The notes under the pieces are model-generated. The model saw only the letters and a list, made by a program, of their open reading frames with translations, had not been told where the DNA came from and made no database searches. 64,000 nucleotides of DNA, from IMG/VR virus record IMGVR_UViG_3300031787_000001, positions 1 to 64,000 of that record. One strand, written 5' to 3'. Of this stretch, positions 10,811-17,335 are shown in pieces (the stretch's first letter is position 1; the number at the start of each line of letters is the position of its first letter). Both the position numbers and the translations under genes were made by a program. The stretch comes from a virus.

Positions 10811-12727
10811 TTATTCATCTACCACTAGATAACTATTTTTTGTTGGTGATACAACTGTAGGTTCAATTTTTATTCTTTTTATTATATTACCAAATTTATC
10901 GTAATCAAATACTATATTATTATTTGTTTGTGGTGCATTATTTGATGTTGTTGCGGTTGTTTTTGTGTTTGATGCTTCTTTGTTTTCTTTGTTCATATTT
11001 TGAGCCTTAAGTCCATCCCTAATTATCTTTTGACCTTCTTTTAACTGATTATCTACACTATTACCCATTTTATCAACAAAGTCTGTAACCAATTTACCTC
11101 CTGCAACCGATTCGGTTTTAGTTGATTGTGCTAATTTAGCTTGTGCTGTTGGTCCAAATCCTAATGTTTCCGCAAGTTGAGTTCCTTTTTTACCCGCCTG
11201 ATTCATACCCAATAACGCAATGTAATTGACATCTCTTTTTATGTTTTCAATATTTGAAGCCTGTCCCCTCGCAATGTCTTCTGTTGTTTTTTCTTTTAAT
11301 TGGTCTTGGTATTGTAATAATTCTTTTGCTTGTTGGTCTGTTAACTCATCTAATGCAACTTCTTGTTTACCAAAATATTTTTGTAAATCTGGTGATTTTC
11401 CTAAATCGATGGTCATCTTACCATCTTTCATTCTCGCTATGTTTGTTAAAAATTCCGTTTGGTCAGGATCTAAAGTTAAACCTCTAGCCAATAAATCAGA
11501 AGCCGCCGATGATTTTTCAGCCGCTGCCAAAGCACCTTGTGCGAGTTCTTTGTATGAAATACCCATTTGAGCGGCCATTTCTTTTGCTCTACGTAAATTA
11601 ACACCAGTTATTTCAAATCTACCTTGTTCAGAATTATATGTTGCCAAACCTTTTGCAGCACCAATTAATGCGTCCTGTAGTCCCTCAACATTGTTTGTTG
11701 ACATGTACATTAATTTAAGTGGATCATTAAAATCACCTATTGCACCACCTAATACTTGTAAATTAGCGGATAATTCTAACGCACCTTCAGGATTCATAAC
11801 TTTATCCGCTATTTGGAAAACTTCATTCATACTCATTCTAAATTCAGTTGCCTTTCTTGCCATAGTTGCCAATCCATCAATACCGTTTTTAAAACCATAC
11901 GAATTTATTTTGTCCATATTTTGTGCTAAGTCACCAATTACTTTTTTAGATTGTAAACCGAGTTCCATAGAACGTTTACCCGCTCTTTCTATTGCTGAAT
12001 TTGCTTCTTGTGCACCTATACCTATTTTTTCAAAATCATCATATAAGCTAACCATGTCTTGCATTGAACCTAAATATGCCTTACCAACCTCTCCCGCCTT
12101 TTCTAATGTTTGTTGATTGACCAATGCAAATCTACCACTTTCATTTACAATTGAAATTGCAGCATCTGCCACCTCCGCAAAACTAATACCAAGTTGAACT
12201 AATCTTGGGTTGGCGTCTGTTATTGTTTCTCTAAAATCTCTAGAAAGATCACCTGTTAAAAGTGCTTTGGAGTTAACTTCTTCTAATAATTTTGTCTGTC
12301 GTGCATAATAACTTTCCATTCCCTTGGCCACCATTTCGACAAGTGTTTTACCCATACCTTGTAAAGTAAAAGTTCCTGTCTTAATTTTTTCCATTAGATC
12401 ATCTATACCCACCAATTGATCTTGTAAATTAGGTAAATAAGTATTTGATTGTGATTCTTGAGTTTTTAATAAACCCATAACAGCGTTCAAAGATGCTGTA
12501 CCAACATCCTTAATTGCACTACCGGTACTAACAGTACCTGTACCACTTGTGCTAGATGAACTTGATCCAGAGTTAGATTGTTTTTGTACCTTATTCCATT
12601 CATCCATTAATCTTCTTTTTTCATCGGAAGTTAATGGATTACCACCATTTTGTCTTAAAGCTTCATTAAATACGTCAGTATAATCATTTGAAAATCTTGC
12701 TAACGCTGAATAATTTAAATTTGGCAT
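10811..12727 (-). CDS. Tail tape measure protein (gp29-like)
   Basis: A 638-residue, Ala/Met/Lys/Gln-rich and largely helical protein. The central part (about residues 100-470) is a long amphipathic helical region with phrases typical of tape measures, such as GAALAAAEK-like Ala-rich helices and repeated MxxxA/G patterns. A Ser/Thr/Gly linker sits near residues 52-75 and a low-complexity Asn/Thr linker near residue 590. Tape measure proteins fill the tail tube lumen and set tail length; T4 gp29 is about 590 residues, so this length predicts a tail near T4 size. The gene begins 4 nt after the stop of the gp51-like frameshift extension of the upstream gene, matching the universal chaperone-then-tape-measure order of long-tailed phages. 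Identification rests on composition, length and position. Confidence 0.75.
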   Translation of the reverse strand: MPNLNYSALARFSNDYTDVFNEALRQNGGNPLTSDEKRRLMDEWNKVQKQSNSGSSSSSTSGTGTVSTGSAIKDVGTASLNAVMGLLKTQESQSNTYLPNLQDQLVGIDDLMEKIKTGTFTLQGMGKTLVEMVAKGMESYYARQTKLLEEVNSKALLTGDLSRDFRETITDANPRLVQLGISFAEVADAAISIVNESGRFALVNQQTLEKAGEVGKAYLGSMQDMVSLYDDFEKIGIGAQEANSAIERAGKRSMELGLQSKKVIGDLAQNMDKINSYGFKNGIDGLATMARKATEFRMSMNEVFQIADKVMNPEGALELSANLQVLGGAIGDFNDPLKLMYMSTNNVEGLQDALIGAAKGLATYNSEQGRFEITGVNLRRAKEMAAQMGISYKELAQGALAAAEKSSAASDLLARGLTLDPDQTEFLTNIARMKDGKMTIDLGKSPDLQKYFGKQEVALDELTDQQAKELLQYQDQLKEKTTEDIARGQASNIENIKRDVNYIALLGMNQAGKKGTQLAETLGFGPTAQAKLAQSTKTESVAGGKLVTDFVDKMGNSVDNQLKEGQKIIRDGLKAQNMNKENKEASNTKTTATTSNNAPQTNNNIVFDYDKFGNIIKRIKIEPTVVSPTKNSYLVVDE

Positions 12728-12731
12728 TATT

Positions 12732-12878
12732 TTAACCTTTTTCTAATTCTATTATATAATTTATGAAATATCTTCTTATATAAATAGGCATGGACAAAAT
12801 ATCCGAATAGGTAAAACCTTTTTTAACCAAAAATAATATCTCTGAAAGTTGATCCTTTCTATATTCCGTAGAAAGGGC
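12732..12878 (-). CDS. gp51-like C-terminal extension reached by probable +1 frameshift
   Basis: This frame encodes 48 residues (ALSTEYRKDQLSEILF then VKKGFTYSDILSMPIYIRRY and a charged end) and stops 4 nt before the tape measure ATG. The sequence looks like a real helical protein and has the F-x-Y/W-x-D/E-I/L-xx-MP-x-x-x-R-R/K-Y pattern of gp51-type tape-measure chaperone ends. It has no usable start of its own: an in-frame TAG lies about eight codons upstream of the first Ala codon, and the first ATG is after the conserved part. It therefore needs a shift from the gp26-like frame. The likely site is TTT TTT C at 12879-12885: a Phe tRNA on TTT can slip forward to TTC. A shift of -2 would give the same frame. 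The fusion would be about 291 residues. Frameshifted chaperones upstream of the tape measure are known in lambda, P2 and Mu. Confidence 0.7.
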   Translation of the reverse strand, partial: ALSTEYRKDQLSEILFLVKKGFTYSDILSMPIYIRRYFINYIIELEKG

Positions 12879-13608
12879 GAAAAAAGTCCACCCCGAAACC
12901 TATAACAAATAGGACTTCTTCTCCTGATGGGGCGATTGTTTTTTGTGTTAAATCTAAACCTGGTTTGTTATCGTTTATAAATTTTCTAAAGTCCTGAGCA
13001 TCTTTAATTGGTAATCTATCAATAAAATTTTTAATATTCATCATATCTTTATTACCTGCAACAGATTTAATCATAAATTCAAGCCTTTTTGTCATAATCG
13101 GTGGTACACCTAAACCATTCCAACTTTTTTGAATTTCGTCTATTTCACTTTCTTGTTTTTTTGTTAAAAATTTAAAAGTAACATCTACCTTAGATTTTTC
13201 CATAAAATATTTGTATTCACCATTTGAATCTGGTGTTAAAGTGAAATCTTTCATTTTTAATGTACCTAAGTCAACGGTTACATTAAAATCTTTATTTGTT
13301 TTCGGATCAGTTAATGTTACTTTATATTCTGAACCAAAAGCAGTGTTTCTAAGAAAAATTAAAATCGCTTGAATATCTTCATCAATTAATTCGTCAATAG
13401 TTATGTCTCTGTCTAAAACTTTTCTTTTTAATAATTCATTAACAACACCATTCGTATTAACAATATTAGGTGCGGCTAATATATTTTCATCTGTTGCTGT
13501 TAGATATGCGACTCTTACTGATTTTTTATTGTTTGGGTAGTGTATTCCTCTTGATGGTAATTCTACCACATCGTATGCGATTGTTGGGTCTATTCTTAAT
13601 TCTTCCAT
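12859..13608 (-). CDS. Baseplate hub assembly / tape-measure chaperone (gp26-like, zero-frame product)
   Basis: A 249-residue protein resembling the T4 gp26 family (T4 baseplate protein family, PF12322 by recollection). The N-terminal VVELPSRGIHYP signature, the following KSVRVAYLTATDENIL segment and a region describing FLRNTAFGSEYKVTL are typical. In T4, gp26 and gp51 act during hub and tape-measure assembly and are not major virion parts. The zero-frame coding region ends at a TAG at 12859-12861, but just before it a run of six T residues is followed by C, and a second frame continues to the start of the tape measure gene (see the extension entry). A late-like TATTTATT motif lies upstream, and a strong terminator separates it from the tube gene. 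The zero-frame length is close to T4 gp26 (208 residues). Confidence 0.75.
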   Translation of the reverse strand: MEELRIDPTIAYDVVELPSRGIHYPNNKKSVRVAYLTATDENILAAPNIVNTNGVVNELLKRKVLDRDITIDELIDEDIQAILIFLRNTAFGSEYKVTLTDPKTNKDFNVTVDLGTLKMKDFTLTPDSNGEYKYFMEKSKVDVTFKFLTKKQESEIDEIQKSWNGLGVPPIMTKRLEFMIKSVAGNKDMMNIKNFIDRLPIKDAQDFRKFINDNKPGLDLTQKTIAPSGEEVLFVIGFGVDFFRPFYGI

Positions 13609-13710: not shown

Positions 13711-14199
13711 TTAATAAACAAGAATACAACGATCTGGTCTTAATCCACAATCAATTGATGCAATTTCATCTTGTTTGTAATCAAGTGAACCAAAATTTAA
13801 ACTTGTTATAAATGTACCTTGAAGAATCCATTTTTCAACAACAACACCTGTTGGGTCCAACATTTCTAATTCAATATCTTTTTTATAACCAGCAGCATAA
13901 CCCATACGACCTGTAACTGATTCTGCATGTAAACGGAACCACTCCATTAACGCCTGTGCGGCAGAAGGACCAATTGGGTCTTTAAATGTTACTTTCATCT
14001 CATCCCATGTAAATCTACCAGCAACATATGTTGAGGTATTTAAAAAAGGAATCTCAGTTGCATTTATTTTTGCTGATGGTCTCTGTGTTGATATTACATA
14101 CCATTCGTTAATTCCCAAAGACGAAGGGAAACGAAGGATAAACCTGTTCTGTCTTTTCGGTTCGTAAGGAACCGGCATTTTCATTAGTAAATCTGCCAT
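13711..14199 (-). CDS. Tail tube protein (gp19-like)
   Basis: A 162-residue protein matching the T4 gp19 / contractile tail tube family in length (T4 gp19 is 163 residues) and in sequence features: N-terminal P-x-EPKRQNRFILRF, the middle TWDEMKVTFKDPIGPSAAQAL followed by an aromatic WFRLH segment, and the C-terminal TSLNFGSLDYKQDEIASIDC segment. gp19 monomers stack as hexamers to form the rigid inner tube through which DNA leaves. The gene follows the sheath gene, as in T4. It has its own late motif 30 nt upstream and a strong terminator downstream, so it can be expressed as a single-gene high-level message. Confidence 0.92.
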   Translation of the reverse strand: MADLLMKMPVPYEPKRQNRFILRFPSSLGINEWYVISTQRPSAKINATEIPFLNTSTYVAGRFTWDEMKVTFKDPIGPSAAQALMEWFRLHAESVTGRMGYAAGYKKDIELEMLDPTGVVVEKWILQGTFITSLNFGSLDYKQDEIASIDCGLRPDRCILVY

Positions 14200-14503: not shown

Positions 14504-17335
14504 TTATATATTATCAAATGAAGCACCTGTTGGTGTTATAATGAACTCTAAATCAATAAATTCAAGAGAACGAGTAGGTTTAATATAGATTTTACCTCTC
14601 AATGTGTTAGCGTCAATATCTTCAGGGGCATTTGATACCGTAACACGGAAATCATAAAGACCTCTTTCTTTCTTGATTGCTTCCATTATTGGATTAACCA
14701 ATCTTAAGAATTCATTTCTTACCTGATCATCATTTTGTTCAAACAATAATCTAACGGCTACCGCAGATATTAATTTTCTTGCTCTTAATAATAATCTTCT
14801 TACGTTAATTCTATCAAGTGCAGATTCTCTAACTTGTAAGGTTTTATTACCCCAAATTATTGTACCTGTATCTGAGAAAGTCGCAATTGGGTTTATTCTA
14901 CCTTTGTAAAGAATGTCTCTTTCGTCCAATGTTAATTTCTTAACAGCTTTAATTGATTTAACTAAACCTCTTGAATAACCCGCAACCGCGAACCATGGAT
15001 AAGAAACATTATCAGTTAATGCTACATTTCTTAATACCTCACCTGTTGGTGGTATGTAAAGTTGTGTTGCATTATCACCATCTCTTACCTGTATCCAAGG
15101 CCAGTATGTAGCTGAATAGTTACTATCATAACCTAAATCATCTAACATACCAACAACTTCTTCGGCATCATCTACATTTGGTGAATTTATAATATATAAT
15201 GAATCGGCTCTTTCTTCTTCAACCATATCAATTGCTTGATTAGTTAATGAATTGTGATCATAAAAGTTTAGACCAGGCGTTGCGAATACATTTATATTTA
15301 CCGCCTCAGGATTTGAGAATGTTTCAATACCTTTTAGAAAAGCATAATAATCTGAGTTACCTTCAGTAGAACTGAAAACACCACCATTACTTTCCCAGTT
15401 TGACACATATGTATTTTTTCCAAATATGTATTGATCGGTGTTTGTTTTTACATTTCTGTAAATGTCCCAACCATCAAATCCACCATAAGCCGCGAATGTG
15501 AACTTACGGAAAGTTATATTTTCTAACTTATCTTTATTTAAACCTTCTAAATCATATGGGGTTGTTTTATATGTTATACCCGTAATTGACGCGGCGTTAA
15601 CAGATAAGTGGAATGCATATGTTGTTGTATCTTCTGAACTTAAACCTTTATATTTTAAAAGATCGTTATCATACTTGAACCCTTCTTGAGTTGAAAAACC
15701 TAAAGATACTTTTCTTGGTTTATCTCCATTTGTTGTGATTGGAGATCCGTCGGATTCATAACCAACGATATCACCCGCATCGAAGTATTCTGTTTTATAC
15801 ATTAAACTACCCAATATTGAATTTGTTCCGAAACTTGTGTTACTTGAAAAACCTTTGAAACCTGCGGGAATTGCATCTGCCGGTGCGTTTTCTTTCATCT
15901 CCAACATAATGAATTTTGATTTTAATTCATATTCACCATCACTCGTACCTAATTTTTTAGCAATATATCCCGGAACTTCAGGGTCCATAGAACATCTTGA
16001 ATATTTTTCAAGAGCCACTACATTTTCATCGGTATCATTAAAATCACGAACAAGTAAATCAAATTCTTTTGTATCTAAATTAATGTTAGCAATTGTAATT
16101 TTTACTTGTTGATTAGACGCTTCACCATCAGATATTGTGATAACATCAAAAAGATCTGCAACTTTACCACCACGAACTTCAGATACTACTGTTGGTGACA
16201 ATGCAGTACTCCATCTTTCCGCGAAATCGAGTTGGTCTAAATTATAAACATTACTAGTACTTAAACCTCTAATTAAACCTTGTTTATATAAATTTTTAAC
16301 TAAATTAGGATAAGACTCGTGAAGATATAAAGGGAATTCAACATAAGATTTATCAAATACAGAATTACCAATTACTTTACCAATATATTTTGAAGATGTT
16401 AAATCCATACTACATTGATATGATTTAAGACCACCGGTTAATCCATTAACACTTAATTTGAATTCACTTAAAGGATCAGAATCTAATGTAGAAGATGTGA
16501 TATTAACATTTGAAGAATTTGTCACTTCTAATGTTAAAGATTGACCAACATATCTACCTCTAGATCTTAATGCCGCAACAATAACATTCGAATAATCCGT
16601 ATTTAAAGAAGCAGGATACTTGAATCTAGTTACGGTAAATGTATTTCCTGTATCGGGATAAACAAATAAATAAGAATAAACACCATCAATTGTTGTATCT
16701 ACACCTGGAGTTGATTCAGTATAATAAACATTATACCAATTTTTACCATTGTTTGTACCTATTGGTGATGATATTGTTGTACCAGTTAAACCAGATACTG
16801 ATGAATTAGGAACAGGTCCAACTGTAAACCAGTTACCACCATTAAATGTTGTTCCACTTATATACTCAGGTATTGTAGTACCATCTGTTGTTAACTTATC
16901 TGATAGTTCAGTATAAAACGCACTTAATGTAACTGCTGTTGTTGACATTCCACCATTTGTGGTTGTAGGAGTTGCGGTTGTATCTACAGTAACACCACCT
17001 AATGTTCTAATACCAAAAGTGTTAAAAGGTCTGTAACCTGTTAAACCTAAAACTCTTGTTACAAATAATTGATTAGATTCTTCTAAATATGATTTTGCAA
17101 CATATCCTAATTCATATTTTGGATTACCATTACCATCTTTTTCAGGTGATGTTGTTCCGAAATATGTTCTAAACTCATCAAAACTTGTAATTAATACTGG
17201 TTCGAAAGCAGGTCCTTTTAATGTCTCCCCAACCAAACCCAATGTAGTTACACCAACACTTTGTGCAACAAATGTTAAATCTAATTCAGATGTGTACACA
17301 CCTGGTGACACGAATACTCTGTTTGAAGTTGCCAT
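14504..17335 (-). CDS. Contractile tail sheath protein (gp18-like)
   Basis: A 943-residue sheath protein. The N-terminus (NRVFVSPGVYTSELDLTFV) and the segment GLVGETLKGPAFEPVLITSF are the hallmark of T4-like and other contractile sheaths. The C-terminal domain (from about residue 690) has the conserved order of PGLN, YNATYWPWIQV-like, PPTGEVLRNVALTDN-like and INPIATFSDTGTIIWGNKTL segments and the final LRGKIYIKPTRSLEFIDLEF handshake strand. It is much longer than T4 gp18 (659 residues); the extra length is in the Ser/Thr/Gly-rich middle (about residues 110-600), the surface-exposed protease-resistant domains that vary between phages. A late promoter motif lies 40 nt upstream and a terminator directly downstream. 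Confidence 0.95.
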   Translation of the reverse strand: MATSNRVFVSPGVYTSELDLTFVAQSVGVTTLGLVGETLKGPAFEPVLITSFDEFRTYFGTTSPEKDGNGNPKYELGYVAKSYLEESNQLFVTRVLGLTGYRPFNTFGIRTLGGVTVDTTATPTTTNGGMSTTAVTLSAFYTELSDKLTTDGTTIPEYISGTTFNGGNWFTVGPVPNSSVSGLTGTTISSPIGTNNGKNWYNVYYTESTPGVDTTIDGVYSYLFVYPDTGNTFTVTRFKYPASLNTDYSNVIVAALRSRGRYVGQSLTLEVTNSSNVNITSSTLDSDPLSEFKLSVNGLTGGLKSYQCSMDLTSSKYIGKVIGNSVFDKSYVEFPLYLHESYPNLVKNLYKQGLIRGLSTSNVYNLDQLDFAERWSTALSPTVVSEVRGGKVADLFDVITISDGEASNQQVKITIANINLDTKEFDLLVRDFNDTDENVVALEKYSRCSMDPEVPGYIAKKLGTSDGEYELKSKFIMLEMKENAPADAIPAGFKGFSSNTSFGTNSILGSLMYKTEYFDAGDIVGYESDGSPITTNGDKPRKVSLGFSTQEGFKYDNDLLKYKGLSSEDTTTYAFHLSVNAASITGITYKTTPYDLEGLNKDKLENITFRKFTFAAYGGFDGWDIYRNVKTNTDQYIFGKNTYVSNWESNGGVFSSTEGNSDYYAFLKGIETFSNPEAVNINVFATPGLNFYDHNSLTNQAIDMVEEERADSLYIINSPNVDDAEEVVGMLDDLGYDSNYSATYWPWIQVRDGDNATQLYIPPTGEVLRNVALTDNVSYPWFAVAGYSRGLVKSIKAVKKLTLDERDILYKGRINPIATFSDTGTIIWGNKTLQVRESALDRINVRRLLLRARKLISAVAVRLLFEQNDDQVRNEFLRLVNPIMEAIKKERGLYDFRVTVSNAPEDIDANTLRGKIYIKPTRSLEFIDLEFIITPTGASFDNI

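Follow-up and report, generated by a model that had tools for sequence, protein, structure and literature searches.

A probable programmed +1 ribosomal frameshift in a tail assembly chaperone gene of the T4 gp26/gp51 family

Frameshifted tail assembly chaperones of the G/GT type are a widespread and conserved feature of long-tailed phages "except T4", and shifts in the +1 and -2 direction are known among them (PMC5009743). In T4, gp26 and gp51 are listed as hub assembly chaperones, with gp51 being absent from the particle and described as essential and of unknown function (PMC3004832). A +1 shift at the sequence UUU_CGU has been experimentally established in another system (PMC3498833). In the literature searched, which comprised open-licence papers and no preprints, we found no report of a frameshift in gp26/gp51. 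Here we describe a viral locus where, as judged from sequence comparison, a gene of this family very probably contains a programmed +1 ribosomal frameshift that would give rise to a short and a long form of the chaperone.

The analysed stretch of DNA, hereafter termed the window, comprises 64,000 nt of a 286,785-base viral contig, and checks for single copies cover the full record. On its minus strand, a gene at positions 12859..13608 encodes a gp26-like tail (baseplate hub) chaperone of 249 residues, which constitutes the zero-frame short product. Most of this protein matches the family PF12322 (E 1.4e-7, 31.8 bits with a cutoff of 24.5) and it also matches phrog_150 (E 2.3e-12). A second gp26-like gene was sought across the 287 kb record and none was found, leaving 12859..13608 as the only copy. 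Directly upstream resides a tail tube gene (13711..14199, minus strand; phrog_4542 tail tube, E 6.1e-27), a tail sheath gene is located at 14504..17335 (minus strand; phrog_23 tail sheath, E 4.4e-61) and a tape measure-like gene encoding 638 residues follows directly downstream (10811..12727, minus strand). A profile search did not link the latter ORF directly to any tape measure family, and its assignment is based on its position and on the annotation in the relatives immuto and LIS04. The chaperone gene is thus placed between tail tube and putative tape measure, as found in the lambda-type G/GT class. The host of the phage is probably a member of the Bacteroidota.

The gp26-like frame ends with the codons GAC TTT TTT CGC CCT TTC TAC GGA ATA TAG, the stop being located at 12861-12859 on the minus strand. 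Overlapping with this end, a +1 frame of 48 codons (12735..12878, minus strand) encodes the C-terminal extension ALSTEYRKDQLSEILFLVKKGFTYSDILSMPIYIRRYFINYIIELEKG, which is homologous to the C-terminus of T4 gp51 and closed by a TAA at 12734-12732, 4 nt before the ATG of the tape measure-like gene at 12727. Inspection of the sequence shows that, on its upstream side, the +1 frame is closed by a TAG at 12900..12902 (minus strand), which bounds the region of a possible shift. This region contains the heptamer TTTTTTC (12885-12879), and the proposed shift site TTT TTT CGC, comprising the E, P and A codons, extends over 12877..12885 (minus strand), with the P-site TTT at 12882-12880 and the rare A-site CGC at 12879-12877. 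The coordinates of the gp26-like stop, the extension, the heptamer and the bounding TAG all agree with an earlier note on this DNA, whose statement that the extension has no start codon of its own applies to ATG and GTG, neither of which precedes the MP motif, but not to TTG, which is found there twice. The extension alone has no match among Pfam and PHROG profiles, and a second gp51-like extension was sought elsewhere in the record and not found, making 12735..12878 the only copy.

Close relatives were identified in IMG/VR, with 30 loci detected by the gp26-like query and 20 further ones by the tape measure query, and after removal of duplicates 31 distinct junctions including the window were retained. 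In all 31, the +1 frame is open and contains the extension, with a constant spacing of 18 nt between A-site codon and stop. The P codon is TTT in every case (31/31), preceded by TTT in 30 junctions and by TTC in a single one (L049, TTC TTT CGC), and the A codon is CGC in 19, CGT in 11 and CGA in one junction and never AGA, whereas elsewhere in the same genes AGA accounts for 83% of Arg codons and CGC is absent. Phe in the P site is almost always encoded by TTT, compared to a share of TTC of 15-25% among Phe codons elsewhere. Within the window, CGC is used for 3 of the 562 Arg codons in 45 large ORFs, and an in-frame TTT-CGC occurs once in its ORFs, at the shift site. The locus thus combines a UUU_C P site and a rare CGN A site with a conserved +1 ORF, as described for UUU_CGN-type sites, and it shares with the G/GT class a slippery site near the 3' end, a shifted extension and their conservation in relatives. 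In the part of the extension that follows the gp26-like stop, the pN/pS ratio among close relatives is 0.30, with synonymous sites being near saturation, and the differences in the extension distribute over the three codon positions as 0.27/0.18/0.46. By these codon statistics, the extension is under purifying selection.

Five codons before the A site, a conserved GGG codon (12892..12894, minus strand) is a possible 5' stimulator. The codon is present at this position in 31/31 close relatives, compared to 23 of 282 Gly codons (8%) elsewhere in the same genes, and GGG is also enriched among Gly codons at this place in more distant sets (38/61 and 21/48 vs ~10%); with respect to its sequence pattern it looks like a nucleotide-level element. 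A simple Shine-Dalgarno-driven stimulation by GGGG is disfavoured by its spacing and by the near absence of Shine-Dalgarno starts, which are recognizable in just 2 of the 45 window genes. The spacing is also unlike that of prfB. Just 3' of the shift site, folding of the single sequence predicts an 8-bp hairpin (CCUUUCUA/UAGAAAGG; 12854..12876, minus strand). A search of the close-clade alignment for a conserved stimulatory structure 3' of the site detected none, and because the hairpin is absent as a conserved feature in relatives, it is probably dispensable for the shift. The sole consensus pairing in this alignment (z -3.0) extends across the slip site and is probably a consequence of codon conservation.

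The same architecture extends to more distant relatives. Two profile scans of IMG/VR yielded, among the matches listed, 158 usable loci, and within these the extension is open in +1 in 154, with 12 of the 154 also having an open -1 frame; of the remaining four, two are truncated where the contig ends and two have the extension in -1. Among 157 distinct loci of the matches listed, the E, P and A codons include TTT TTT TGG (108 loci), TTT CTT TGG (23), TTT TTT TAC (12) and TTC TTT TGG (5). Named examples, all with the extension in +1, are Flavobacterium phage immuto (TTT CTT TGG), Microcystis phage Mel-JY01 (TTT TTT TGG), LR756508 (TTT CTA TTC), Streptococcus phage GXN1 (TTC TTT CGT), Bacillus phage SP-15 (TTT TTT CAC) and Listeria phage LIS04 (TTT TTT AGT), and seven phage-like contigs from bacterial genome bins are also consistent with +1. 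The alignment of homologues that the earlier note had asked for thus finds slip site and +1 frame conserved, and the +1 join, which it had regarded as an oddity, turns out to be the rule in a large lineage, with -1 found at the same place in cyanophage-type relatives. A gp26-type +1 junction was also observed within a contig of 2.8 Mb that bears the label of a WOR-3 bacterium MAG (L338, CP070664.1), which is either a prophage or a misassembly.

Several loci depart from this layout. In the 595 kb phage LR756511 (L055), the extension is a stand-alone ORF, whose ATG overlaps with the gp26 stop (TAATG, around 3778). Seven gut Bacteroidota-binned contigs (L331, L332, L334, L337, L339, L342 and L343) contain a gp26-like gene followed directly by the next long ORF, with neither slip site nor extension, an observation that counts against the proposed frameshift. 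Two loci (L216 and L239) display TTC TTC TGG and a -1-frame extension without canonical site, and are about 7 nt longer than their cousins past the slip position. Finally, in Vibrio phage D510 (L078) a -1 extension accompanies the gp26 end TCA CTT TTC AAG TAA, which is not the canonical heptamer.

In cyanophage-type relatives, the extension is located in the -1 frame after an in-phase U_UUU_UUC or U_UUU_UUU at the end of gp26. This organization is found in P-SSM2, HTVC008M, S-RSM4, S-CRM01, Melnitz-2 and Sf-FS3, and equally in Aeromonas P19, Vibrio K571, Atu_ph07, PA5oct and Stenotrophomonas CM1, while Rhizobium I1_9 has a -1 extension with U_UUU_UUG. Of 78 distinct P-SSM2-like loci from IMG/VR, all 78 have the in-phase heptamer (U_UUU_UUC) and 77 have the -1 extension. 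The cyanophage and pelagiphage gp26/gp51 loci (L072, L073, L074-L076, L087 and L250-L329) resemble a -1 programmed frameshift and are annotated as separate genes. P-SSM2-like cyanophages offer an ATG a few codons past the slip site, HTVC008M being without such early start, and with start codons available in many -1 loci the case for frameshifting in cyanophages is weaker on this point. As in the window, the overlapping gp26 and gp51 of P-SSM2, S-RSM4 and HTVC008M encode a homologous short protein and an extension joined at the same FF; unlike in the window, the extension follows in the -1 frame and databases list a separate small gp51.

How the +1 frame of the window would be expressed can be considered in light of these relatives. 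Its opening by chance, or as part of a decaying coding sequence, is the least credible explanation: although at this composition 42 codons would stay open in a single sequence with a probability of ~0.012 (about 1%), all complete close relatives keep the frame open, it bears the mark of purifying selection and its product is homologous to T4 gp51. Alternatively, ribosomes that have terminated gp26 might re-initiate at a non-AUG codon and translate the extension separately, so that no fusion would be formed. They could make use of the TTG codons before the MP motif in the window, and both the stand-alone ORF of LR756511 and the ATG shortly after the slip site in P-SSM2-like cyanophages are in line with such re-initiation. 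We consider it unlikely, given that no ATG, GTG or TTG precedes the motif in 13 of the 31 distinct close extensions and in 73 of 150 distant ones among the matches listed, that the extension has a conserved F-x-L motif starting at the slip site, where its frame still overlaps with gp26, and that the slippery site is invariant at the junction.

Two further explanations concern the mode of slippage. A -2 slip on U UUU UUU, named as an alternative in the earlier note, would reach the same frame but add a further Phe, and the re-pairing it demands is possible on the TTT TTT of the window. In relatives, a -2 slip would be mismatched, and a +1 slip would not, at TTC TTT CG (L049, Streptococcus phage GXN1) and at TTT CTT TGG (the immuto set), and we regard it as very improbable. 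Transcriptional slippage on the T6 run, which would generate mRNAs lacking one U, appears to be slightly less probable still: the window does contain six consecutive T, yet such a run is short for polymerase slippage and it is broken in relatives of the same architecture (CTTTC, TTTCTTTGG). Given the variants TTC TTT CGN and TTT CTT TGG, neither a -2 slip nor a long T run can be the common mechanism. By comparison of the sites, nearly all of their variants are compatible with a P-site tRNA that slips forward by one base, and the UUU to UUC shift at TTTTTTC suggested in the earlier note gains support from both the constant P-site TTT of the close junctions and these natural variants.

For the proposed +1 frameshift, we infer that most ribosomes would terminate at the TAG and release the short gp26-like protein, and that some would skip one base, with the P-site tRNA re-pairing from UUU to UUC while the rare CGC resides in the A site, to produce a long chaperone with a gp51-type extension. 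If the system resembles lambda gpG/gpGT, the tape measure protein would be coated by a large number of short chaperones and a small number of long ones, which would bring in the tail tube or hub without either form having to stay in the virion. AF2 models of the short product (pLDDT 87 for the window form and 90 for an immuto-like relative) both rank YqbN, which we take to be a prophage protein of the XkdN tail chaperone type, first and the HK97 tail assembly chaperone second among solved chains, at low Z-scores of 4.9/4.8 for the window and 5.3/4.5 for the relative, with the next-ranked chains at 2.3 and 4.0, respectively. A Foldseek search of the PDB gave no significant match and sequence searches of the PDB returned nothing meaningful. 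The agreement of the two models is a hint towards, and no proof of, a chaperone fold. Taking models, gene order and T4 genetics together, a G/GT-like role is most likely for the window chaperone.

The relationship to T4 can be traced in both products. T4 gp26 and gp51 match PF12322 at E 8.8e-64 and 3.9e-52, each over ~205 residues, and judged by their mutual similarity (E 2e-6) they are paralogues. Their genes are divergently transcribed neighbours, gene 26 on the minus and gene 51 on the plus strand. Since they are paralogous and divergently transcribed, T4 therefore represents a duplication and not, as implied by the separate genes cited in the earlier note, an unjoined pair. Similarly, the proposed join of gp26 and gp51 stands insofar as a gp51-type extension is appended to the long form, as expected for a member of the T4 gp26/gp51 family, whereas the match to gp51 is restricted to its last ~40 residues and does not include the entire protein. 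These residues are 34% identical to the -1-frame extension of P-SSM2, and in hhalign the +1 extensions align at a probability of 93 (E 3.5e-7) with a set that combines the -1-frame extensions and the C-terminus of T4 gp51. The main domains of the +1 and -1 sets align at a probability of 98 (E 3e-13) and end at the same FF. T4 gp26 and gp51 thus belong to the same Pfam/PHROG family as the window proteins, the short form being similar to gp26 and the long form to gp51 including its homologous C-terminal extension. T4 differs in that gp51 carries the extension in frame and the two divergent genes need no frameshift, gene 26 ending with TTC TTT GAG TTA CTA TAA.

In a phylogenetic tree, both T4 proteins group with the cyanophage-type -1 sequences (SH-aLRT 100) on long branches, and the tree, whose root is arbitrary, needs at least three changes of shift direction. 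We lean towards a scenario where the ancestral T4-type hub/tape-measure chaperone was a single frameshifting gene, whose direction of shift changed at least three times while the output of short and long forms was kept, and where T4 exchanged frameshifting for duplication into gp26 (short) and gp51 (long). If true, T4 would be a duplicated form of the tail-chaperone frameshift rule and not an exception to it. The synthesis of short and long products by frameshifting in T4-type relatives would explain the "T4 exception", and gp26 and gp51 are suggested to be short and long chaperones, which most T4-type relatives make by frameshifting, from which a direct hypothesis for the function of gp51 follows. 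The collection also provides many naturally occurring sites, +1 as well as -1, that share a homologous position and on which the evolution of frameshifting can be studied, and it would correct the annotation of hundreds of phages in which the extension is either omitted or entered as a gene of its own.

Among described frameshift sites, influenza PA-X (UCC_UUU_CGU; PMC3498833) resembles the window in its UUU_C at the P site, a slowly decoded CGN at the A site and a +1 shift with re-pairing from UUU to UUC. The window would employ a bacterial ribosome in an unrelated gene, making the likeness convergent, and its relatives also use UUU_U and CUU_U. The +1 site of prfB (RF2), CUU_UGA, finds a counterpart in the CUU_UGG with upstream GGGG of certain relatives. 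It differs in having a stop codon in the A site and a Shine-Dalgarno-like sequence at a spacing of 3 nt from the slip codon, whereas in the window GGGG is located 8 nt before the P codon, the A site holds the sense codon CGC and the product is a chaperone. With lambda gpG/gpGT and HK97 gp13/14, the window shares a single gene flanked by those for tail tube and tape measure and a short and a predicted frameshift-extended product, and the models hint weakly at a similar fold; no sequence similarity to either chaperone was detected. Lambda and HK97 shift in the -1 direction, as do the cyanophage-type relatives, whereas the window with its T4-type contractile tail would shift by +1 at UUU_CGC (UUU_CGN or UUU_UGG in its relatives); the direction of the shift is inessential to the G/GT class.
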